Assembly (NCBI GenBank): GCA_902592375.1
Contig: CACJEG010000004.1
Span: 62,001-126,000 of the forward strand
DNA length: 64,000 bases
From: an uncultured Pelagibacteraceae bacterium
GTDB taxonomy: Bacteria > Pseudomonadota > Alphaproteobacteria > Pelagibacterales > Pelagibacteraceae
Direction of reading: 5' to 3'
Made by a program: the position numbers and the translations under genes. The notes beneath the pieces are model-generated. The model was not told the DNA's origin, did no database searches, and saw only the letters and a list, made by a program, of their open reading frames with translations. Of the stretch, positions 28,346 through 31,469 are shown piece after piece (the first letter of the stretch is position 1; the number at the start of each line of letters is the position of its first letter).

Positions 28346-28425
28346 ATATAAACTATTAGAATTCGATATTCTTAGATGATATGCTTGAACAATTATTAAT
28401 AAAAATATGAAATAGAAGGAGATTT

Positions 28426-29433
28426 ATGTTTAAAAAATTATTTAGAACATTTGCAGTATTTTTGTTTCTTTCAGGCTCATTTGTAGGGAAAGCAATTTCT
28501 AATGAATTGACTTTCTTTACAATTGGTACTGGAGGAACTGCTTATACCTATTATCCAGTAGGAGGAATGATAGCCAATGCTATTTCAAAACCTCCAGGAT
28601 CAAGGGAATGTGGAAAAGGTGGAAGTTGTGGAGTTGATGGTTTGATTGCATCTGCTGTTTCTTCCAGAGGTTCAGTTGATAATGTAAACGCTATTATTTC
28701 GGGATTAAGAAATTCTGGATTTGCACAATCTGATGTTGCTTATTGGGCTTACACTGGAACAGGAACAATGGAAGGTAAAGAACCTGCAAAAGATTTGAGA
28801 ACTATTGCGGCTTTATTCCAGGAACATATTCATTTAGTAGCTTTAAAAAAAAGTAATATTAATTCAGTTAAAGACTTAAAAGGAAAAAGAGTATCTTTGG
28901 ATGAGCCAGGTTCTGGTACATATGTAGATGCTAAATTAATCTTAGAATCAAATGGATTAAGCACTAGTGATGTTAAAGCAGAAGCTTTAAAAGGAAAAGC
29001 TGCAACTGATGCTTTAAGAAATGGTAAAGTTGATGCTATTTTTGTTGTAGCTGGCTATCCAACAGGTGCAATTGTTGAGCTTGCATCTGCAGTTGATATT
29101 AAATTAGTGCCAATTGATGGTTCTGGAGCAAAAGCTCTAACTTCAAAATATGGGTTCTTCTCTGAAAGTCCGATACCATCAGGAACTTATGAAGGCGTAG
29201 ATGCAGTTAATACTGTAGCTGTTGGTGCTCAGTGGTTTACATCTGCAAAAGAAGATACTGATTTGATATATAAAATAACAAAAGCTTTATGGAATAAGGA
29301 GTCTAGAAAGCTAATGGATGTAGGACATGCAAAAGGAAAAACAATTACACCCGATACAGCCCTTTCGGGAGTAGGAGTACCATTACACCCTGGTGCAGAA
29401 AAGTTTTATAAAGAAGCAGGACTAATAAAATAA
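28426..29433 (+). CDS. TAXI-family TRAP transporter solute receptor
   Basis: Signal peptide, FFTIGTGGTAYTYYPVGGMIANAI, GSCGVDGLIASAVSSRGSVDN, VDAIFVVAGYPTGAI. Confidence 0.93.
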   Translation: MFKKLFRTFAVFLFLSGSFVGKAISNELTFFTIGTGGTAYTYYPVGGMIANAISKPPGSRECGKGGSCGVDGLIASAVSSRGSVDNVNAIISGLRNSGFAQSDVAYWAYTGTGTMEGKEPAKDLRTIAALFQEHIHLVALKKSNINSVKDLKGKRVSLDEPGSGTYVDAKLILESNGLSTSDVKAEALKGKAATDALRNGKVDAIFVVAGYPTGAIVELASAVDIKLVPIDGSGAKALTSKYGFFSESPIPSGTYEGVDAVNTVAVGAQWFTSAKEDTDLIYKITKALWNKESRKLMDVGHAKGKTITPDTALSGVGVPLHPGAEKFYKEAGLIK

Positions 29434-29448
29434 TTAATAAAAATATAC

Positions 29449-29482
29449 TGCCCTAGATCTATTTTGATCTAGGGCATTTTTT
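29449..29482 (+). terminator. Terminator-like hairpin between TRAP receptor and permease
   Basis: TGCCCTAGATC-TATTTT-GATCTAGGGCA (11-bp perfect stem, 6-nt loop) then TTTTTT; next ATG at 29484. Confidence 0.85.
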
Positions 29483-29483
29483 C

Positions 29484-31469
29484 ATGTCTCAGTTTAATAT
29501 TTCACAAAAAAAAGTTTCTGATTTACAAAAAAGATATGAGGTTAAAACTAATGAGAGGGAATTAAAAAATTTTTTAAAATCTTTTGCTTTTTTAGTTTTA
29601 GCATTAATGTCTATTTATCATTTTTATGCTTCTGGTTTTGGTACAATCAGAGAAATTTTGCATAGAGGAATACATATCTCTTTCATTGTAGGTTTAGTTT
29701 TTATTTTTTATAGTTGGAAAAAAATTGATCATAGTAAAAAAAATTTTAACACACCTCTTATTGATATAATTCTTTCAATTTTAGTAGTTATTTCAGCTTT
29801 ATATTTACCCTTACTACCTCCAGAGGTTTTAGCTCCAAGGGTTGGTAATCCTGAAAATATAGACATTATAATGGGATCTTTATTAATAGTATTAACTTTA
29901 GAGGCTGCAAGAAGATCAATTGGTTTTACTCTACCTTTTATTTGTGTACTCTTTATTTTGTTTGCTATTTTTGGACCTTATTTTCCTGGTGCTTTAAAAC
30001 ATGGAGGCGCTAGTTGGGTTGGTTTTGTAAATCATATTTACCTTACTAATCAAGGAATCTATGGAATTGCTGTCGGGGTTATGGCTCAATATGTTTTTTT
30101 ATTTATATTATTTGGTGTACTTGCAACAAGAATTGGATTGGGCCAGCTTTTTATTGATTTAGCAATGGTTATAGCGGGAAAATATTCTGGAGGTCCAGCA
30201 AAAGTTGCGATTTTTTCATCAGCCTTTTTAGGAACTATTTCTGGTTCATCTATCGCTAATACTGTTACTACCGGGTCTTTAACAATTCCAGCAATGAAAA
30301 AAGTTGGCTATCCACCACATTTTTCTGGAGCTGTAGAAGCAACAGCTTCTACAGGTGGCCAAATTACACCCCCAATACTTGGAGCTGCAGCATTTATAAT
30401 GGTAGAATATTTAGAGGTTCCACTTAGAGATATTTTAGCAGCAGCACTAATTCCTGCTTTACTTCATTATTTTGGCATATTTATAATGGTTCACCTGGAA
30501 GCTAAAAAGCTAGGCCTTAGAGGGTTAACAGATGAAGAAGTACCAAAATTTTTATCAGTAGTTAAAGATAACTGGTTGTCCTTAGCACCATTAATACTTT
30601 TAGTTTATTTGATTTTGATTGGTCGTACACCTGACTATGCAGCAGTAATTTCAATTATAGCATGCGTATTAATTGGTTTTGTAAAAAAAACAAATAGACT
30701 TACAATTAAAGATCTCGTTCGGTGTTTATCGCAAGGAGCAAAAAATACTTTAGCTGTTGGAGCTGCAGCTGCAGCAATTGGAATTATAGTTGGTGTTGTG
30801 ACACTAACTGGTGTTGGATTTCGATTAGGATATGTTGTAATTCAAACAGCAGGTGACATAGGAAGTTTTTTTCTAAATTTTATTCCATTTGGTTTGCTAA
30901 CTATTGAAGATTTGACACTTTTTTTCTCATTATTATTAATCGCTTTTTCTTGTATTTTTATGGGAACTGGGGTTCCAACAACTGCAACTTATATAATTTT
31001 AGTGGCTGTTGCAGCACCAGCATTAACACAACTAAACATTGAACCAATTGTTTCTCATTTCTTTGTTTTTTATTATGGTGTTCTAGCAGATATAACTCCT
31101 CCAGTAGCTCTTGCTGCTTACGCTGCTGCAGGAATAGCAGGTTCTAATCCATTTAAAACAGGAAACACAGCATTTAGGTTAGGTATTGCGAAGGCATTAG
31201 TTCCATTTGTTTTTGTTTATTCACCATCCTTATTATTGGTAGCTCAAGGTTTTGATGTGTACATTTTTTTTCAAACATTAATTTCTGCAATGATAGGAAT
31301 AGGATTAATAGGAATAAGTTTTTCTGGCTATTGGTTAAAAAGTGTACCAATTTATCAACGTTGGTATTTAGGAGTGAATTCTTTATTTTTTATTGCTCCA
31401 GGAATTCAGAGTTCTATTTTAGGATTATTTTTGATTTCTCCAGTAATTTTTTTACAACTTAAAAAATAA
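29484..31469 (+). CDS. TRAP transporter fused 4TM/12TM permease
   Basis: Many TM segments; GTISGSSIANTVTTGSLTIPAMKKVGYPPHFSGAVEATASTGGQITPPILGAAAFIM; GTGVPTTATYIILV. Confidence 0.93.
   Translation: MSQFNISQKKVSDLQKRYEVKTNERELKNFLKSFAFLVLALMSIYHFYASGFGTIREILHRGIHISFIVGLVFIFYSWKKIDHSKKNFNTPLIDIILSILVVISALYLPLLPPEVLAPRVGNPENIDIIMGSLLIVLTLEAARRSIGFTLPFICVLFILFAIFGPYFPGALKHGGASWVGFVNHIYLTNQGIYGIAVGVMAQYVFLFILFGVLATRIGLGQLFIDLAMVIAGKYSGGPAKVAIFSSAFLGTISGSSIANTVTTGSLTIPAMKKVGYPPHFSGAVEATASTGGQITPPILGAAAFIMVEYLEVPLRDILAAALIPALLHYFGIFIMVHLEAKKLGLRGLTDEEVPKFLSVVKDNWLSLAPLILLVYLILIGRTPDYAAVISIIACVLIGFVKKTNRLTIKDLVRCLSQGAKNTLAVGAAAAAIGIIVGVVTLTGVGFRLGYVVIQTAGDIGSFFLNFIPFGLLTIEDLTLFFSLLLIAFSCIFMGTGVPTTATYIILVAVAAPALTQLNIEPIVSHFFVFYYGVLADITPPVALAAYAAAGIAGSNPFKTGNTAFRLGIAKALVPFVFVYSPSLLLVAQGFDVYIFFQTLISAMIGIGLIGISFSGYWLKSVPIYQRWYLGVNSLFFIAPGIQSSILGLFLISPVIFLQLKK

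Follow-up and report, generated by a model that had tools for sequence, protein, structure and literature searches.

The window, the 64,000-nucleotide stretch of DNA analysed here, is part of G000, a Pelagibacter (SAR11) genome that comprises 23 contigs and 1.25 Mb. It carries the gene for a receptor, or solute-binding protein (SBP), of the TAXI family followed by the gene for its cognate TRAP translocator, and a stem-loop sits in the spacer between the two, with a U-rich T6 run directly after the stem (Table 1). The receptor gene stops at a TAA codon (29431-29433); the permease ATG at 29484 is preceded by a C (29483) and spaced 9 nt from an AGGG in the 3' arm of the stem. The stem is perfect over 11 bp and ends 7 nt upstream of this ATG. 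The perfect stem, the U-tract, the AGGG and the coordinates were all found, on checking the sequence, to be as a first-pass annotation had described them, and a reading of the same sequence turned up nothing resembling a Shine-Dalgarno (SD) element for the permease outside the stem.

Table 1. Features of the receptor-permease junction (positions are those of the window)
Feature	Position	Strand	Basis or remark
Strong SD of the receptor, AAGGAG	28416-28421	+	Read from sequence
TAXI-family TRAP receptor (solute-binding protein) gene	28426..29433	+	ORF, 335 aa; Pfam NMT1_3 PF16868, E 3.5e-75
Stem, 5' arm TGCCCTAGATC	29449..29459	+	Sequence, folding, covariation
Loop TATTTT	29460..29465	+	Relatives differ in loop length and sequence
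Stem, 3' arm GATCTAGGGCA	29466..29476	+	Sequence, folding, covariation
AGGG, weak SD-like, within 3' arm	29471..29474	+	Invariant in 31 distinct SAR11 versions; putative SD
T6 tract, terminator-like	29477..29482	+	TTATT or similar instead in the 81-87% identity group
TRAP permease gene	29484..31469	+	ORF, 661 aa; Pfam DctM PF06808, E 1.2e-99

The hairpin has a minimum free energy of -20.5 kcal/mol (z -4.65), and equal stability was reached in 0 of 200 shuffles. It was by far the strongest site in a scan of 24-36 kb for terminator-like structures. The scan as a whole returned 6 sites against 5.6 in shuffles, no excess overall, and because the counts are not above shuffles this total is uninformative and was not used as evidence. 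A search of the hairpin against Rfam found no curated family reaching its gathering score; a match to Spot_42 was rejected as chance (E 0.071; 23.6 against 80 bits).

To follow the element across SAR11, permease relatives were gathered from Pelagibacter genomes and GTDB contigs. The permease N-terminus is conserved from 29484, which speaks against a distinct start further downstream. The stem is kept with compensatory changes at 62 of 62 SAR11 orthologous loci (46 distinct sequences; some genomes may be counted twice), and at all 62 it ends 3-7 nt from the start, a value that varies with the weak basal pairs counted. Relatives of at least 94% identity have the TGCCCTAGATC/GATCTAGGGCA stem and T6, then ATG or CATG. 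The group at 81-87% identity, which makes up the majority of the sample, has the same stem with compensatory changes and a tail of TTATT or similar, and the group at 70-74% has AACCCTGGAT or AACCCTAAGT stems with U-rich tails. The U-tract had been described as abutting the permease start; this holds for the T6 of the window, but an unbroken tract is restricted to the groups at 94% or more and at 70-74%, and most SAR11 orthologues have an eroded one (17 of 62 loci have 6 T or more in the 8 nt after the stem).

Covariation was scored in the 31 distinct SAR11 hairpins. Standard pairs fill 99.7% of the pair cells, two-sided changes occur at 6 pairs (28 cells), and the covariation score is 0.329 against 0.179 in the shuffled control, although relatedness among the sequences means that the counts do not represent independent events and makes the shuffled control overly lenient. 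With the arms slid out of register the score is at most 0.076 and standard pairing drops to 45% or less. The two-sided changes and the slid control therefore leave little doubt about the stem, and conservation with compensatory changes places the hairpin beyond chance. A lack of stem conservation, which would have counted against the first-pass annotation, is thus not seen in SAR11.

We also considered 46 homologous loci outside SAR11, mostly from Alphaproteobacteria. A strong hairpin is present at 39 of them, usually with a U-tract, so a receptor-permease hairpin is old and common in the TAXI-TRAP operon. These hairpins lie 18-69 nt upstream of the start and abut it at none of the 46 loci. 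Judged from the sequences compared, fusion of the hairpin to the start is a SAR11 trait within the TAXI-TRAP family.

A genome-wide survey covered 1.03 Mb of G000 and 1.2 Mb of a second SAR11 genome (G217), in which ORFs were identified and gene starts taken from a home-made caller. Strong hairpins at most 12 nt from the start at co-directional junctions all fell between a binding-protein gene and the first permease gene (7 of 7 in G000, 4 of 4 in G217), the SBP class resting on a signal-peptide and length heuristic that lets in a few non-SBPs (cox, AcrA-like). The abutting set of G000 comprises TAXI-TRAP, DctP-DctQ, PotD-PotB, MalE-MalF, ProX-ProW, family 1 SBP plus permease, and HisJ-HisQ types. 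The ProW hairpin also covaries, with two-sided changes at 8 pairs. Pfam checks covered ten proteins of the abutting pairs and the window's own two; all ten submitted from the pairs matched receptor or permease families. Among gaps of 18-250 nt, a strong hairpin was found at 15 of 17 SBP-to-permease junctions in G000 and 10 of 13 in G217, against 9 of 175 and 10 of 223 other gaps (~5%; Fisher p for the enrichment 2e-14 and 4e-10, respectively). At the two G000 junctions that have no intergenic hairpin, one lies over the start or just within the ORF instead. Operon ends carry strong hairpins in 6 of 250 cases in G000 and 5 of 332 in G217, with ~2% at convergent ends. The hairpin stands directly against the start of the next gene in about half of SAR11 receptor-permease operons, the window's TAXI-TRAP operon included.

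Most strong hairpins in the two genomes come after binding-protein genes. Many of the remaining ones follow GroEL, HU, porin, cold-shock and pilin genes (identified by eye and presumably highly expressed), so a better statement of the rule may be that abundant mRNAs have their 3' ends marked by hairpins, those of SBPs foremost among them. Several individual loci are also of note. At locus L132 (G000 C1:111152-111622, minus strand) a TctB-like permease gene has its presumed GTG start within the 5' arm of a hairpin (AGAGCAGTGA...TCACTGCTCT, followed by TTTTTT), whose 3' arm and U-tract fall in the coding region. In a DctQ-like ORF at locus L172 (G000 C7:8779-9285, minus strand), the first 18 codons include a terminator-like hairpin (GGGCAAACAAAAGTTTGCCC followed by T9) that is translated as RANKSLPFFF; the start codon of this ORF is possibly misassigned. 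Pelagibacter also has a second, distant TAXI-TRAP permease family (L016-L030; ~36% identity), in which a strong terminator-like hairpin (AAAGGCCTGGTA...TACCGGGCCTTTTTTTT) follows the receptor and the start lies about 20-25 nt beyond it.

The tails of these hairpins bear on how they might act. At ten SBP-to-permease junctions in G000 the hairpin comes with a stretch of 8 nt containing 6 T or more. PotB hairpins have U-rich tails throughout, and the HisQ-type hairpin is kept in 30 of 30 orthologues without a proper U-tract (tails like ATCTAT). What the junctions have in common is a stable hairpin at the 3' end; some of them, including that of TAXI-TRAP, could plausibly terminate transcription intrinsically, and others are unlikely to. 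Precedents exist for both modes of action. Internal intrinsic terminators follow SBP genes in the ABC importer operons of cellulolytic Clostridia, where the stem-loops lead to premature termination and SBP excess, with termination efficiencies of 20.7-96.1% in R. cellulolyticum, and at least 15 E. coli importers are reported to have the same kind of terminator (Wu et al. 2022, PMC9045158). Stem-loops at this position in E. coli mark or protect stabilised SBP mRNA, the SBP being the stabilised gene in five ABC systems (PMC5927463).

To assess translation, the cost of opening the region from -15 to +10 around the start was computed for every gene, unselected (n = 1051). The TAXI-TRAP permease start has a predicted cost of 21.2 kcal/mol, which ranks 1 of 1051, against a median of 5.4. 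The six highest costs all belong to permeases that follow SBPs, as do the top three in G217, a ranking that is not independent of the hairpin scan because the same hairpins are measured.

Taking these results together, we propose, with a probability of about 0.65, that the stem-loop sets the receptor-over-permease ratio through the 3' end of the receptor mRNA and through damped permease initiation on read-through RNA. It would form the 3' end of most receptor mRNA, an end made either by partial intrinsic termination (with U6 at TAXI-TRAP) or by a block to 3'-to-5' decay of processed RNA. On read-through RNA the hairpin would fold up the permease initiation region, because it ends so close before the ATG, and permease translation would fall. 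Of this account, computation has shown the stem-loop, its conservation by compensatory change, its confinement to binding-protein/permease junctions across the genome and the predicted occlusion; termination, protection from decay, the damping of translation and the ratio are inferences. Against the explanation stand the erosion of the U-tract in most SAR11 orthologues, described above, and the strength of the hairpin, which at -20 kcal/mol over the start would leave the permease nearly silenced at equilibrium.

The first-pass annotation had proposed dual control of transcription and translation, with the permease SD hidden in the 3' arm. An SD-sequestering switch of this kind, with AGGG as the SD, draws on the pairing of the motif within the stem and on its invariance in the 31 versions, 6-9 nt from the ATG, while other stem positions change. 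We rejected the invariance as proof of an SD because G-U wobble fully accounts for which side of these pairs changes. AGGG is also weak as an SD (three Watson-Crick pairs and one wobble, not an SD core of 4 nt or more), such cores are absent from most SAR11 genes (present in ~20%, against 8% in shuffled leaders), and none of the six further abutting hairpins in G000 carries an SD in its arm. We consider such a switch unlikely, and in our modelling occlusion of the whole initiation region appears better supported than SD masking. What is supported of the dual control is an element that sets receptor above permease, in line with the junction-wide hairpins and the precedents. The hidden SD is its weak part, the motif being marginal and SDs little used, and the ending of most transcripts at the hairpin is a conjecture, given how widely the U-tract is eroded. 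Alternatively, the hairpin could be only a partial terminator or 3'-end stabiliser that has come to lie near the start as a side effect of genome streamlining, with no meaningful control of translation. Spacers in SAR11 are indeed short (median gap between co-directional ORFs 1-2 nt), the homologues outside SAR11 keep their hairpin away from the start, and G000 has other SBP hairpins 15-65 nt away; in the ProW family the gap ranges over 3-16 nt. The gap is, however, tightly held in the TAXI family and in 30 of 30 orthologues each of MalF (0-3 nt), PotB (5-9 nt) and HisQ (5-8 nt), and from established knowledge so strong a hairpin within the ribosome footprint must influence initiation. This account is credible but, in our judgement, somewhat improbable.

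Two further explanations were weighed. If the hairpin ended a monocistronic receptor transcript, the permease promoter would lie within the 3' end of the receptor gene, and a promoter-like match at 9 of 12 positions does end at 29434. Such matches are no commoner than in shuffles (44 against 60), though, and the hairpin would still stand in the leader of that transcript, which makes a separate promoter quite doubtful. A DNA operator palindrome or riboswitch-like regulated element might be suspected from a perfect palindrome adjoining a transporter gene, and SAR11 does employ riboswitches (PMC2704228). One palindrome near another start does resemble an operator: the eighth near-start hairpin of G000 (C1:112751-113449, plus strand), a 15-bp palindrome before an IclR-type regulator gene with a divergent TctC-like receptor gene, is probably a DNA operator and not an RNA hairpin. 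At the TAXI-TRAP junction, by contrast, the single hairpin has a loop that varies and lacks any conserved part resembling an aptamer, its compensatory changes match RNA pairing, the corresponding site in other operons holds unrelated stems, and Rfam returned no family at gathering score; regulation of this kind we regard as very unlikely.

The proposal that the stem-loop sets the receptor-permease ratio can be extended, tentatively and at somewhat less than even odds, to a cell-wide SAR11 design rule. Strong 3'-end hairpins, otherwise rare, would be placed chiefly behind binding-protein genes; roughly half of the importer operons would have theirs fused to the permease start, and one element would thus set stoichiometry at two levels, the RNA 3' end and translation, with no reliance on Shine-Dalgarno pairing.

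Compared with known systems, the SAR11 hairpins resemble the internal terminators of Clostridia in being a single stem-loop in the SBP-translocator spacer, several with poor U-tracts, and in the SBP excess expected from them. In SAR11 the element also extends to TRAP operons, accompanies almost all importers of the genome and is fused to the start of the permease gene. The Clostridia paper is silent on translation and start codons (PMC9045158); termination was measured there, whereas for SAR11 it is predicted. Decay of E. coli malEFG-type mRNA is alike in that a stable hairpin, often lacking a U-tract, closes off the SBP segment of the mRNA on its 3' side (PMC5927463), but the E. coli structures are mostly inside the downstream coding sequence, ~107 nt in. 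The SAR11 hairpins are mostly in the spacer, often with a U-tract, and their role in decay is one that we infer. The SAM-V riboswitch is an example of an expression platform that occludes the ribosome-binding site. Such platforms are similar in covering the initiation region of the downstream gene with structure; the SAR11 hairpin differs in having no aptamer, no evident alternative fold and an SD that is marginal or absent. SAM-V itself occurs in marine bacteria including SAR11 (PMC6061858). The open-access literature searched yielded no account of hairpins between SBP and permease genes in SAR11, nor of a terminator fused to a start codon in transporter operons. Against that literature the general kind of element is already known; its near-universality in SAR11, its occurrence in TRAP operons and its fusion to the start are new.

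SAR11 bacteria count among the most numerous cells on Earth and make their living by binding-protein-dependent uptake. Their PotD frequently ranks with the most abundant of the proteins detected (PMC8437039). The hairpin probably leads to far more receptor than permease, and is probably used in nearly every SAR11 operon of this type in an unusually compact form. It would represent a streamlined genome's way of holding binding proteins above permeases, one that is directly testable, as these conserved hairpins are short, occur at almost all such junctions and are rare outside them. In marine metagenomes they may also serve as a signature by which receptor-permease operons can be recognised from sequence.
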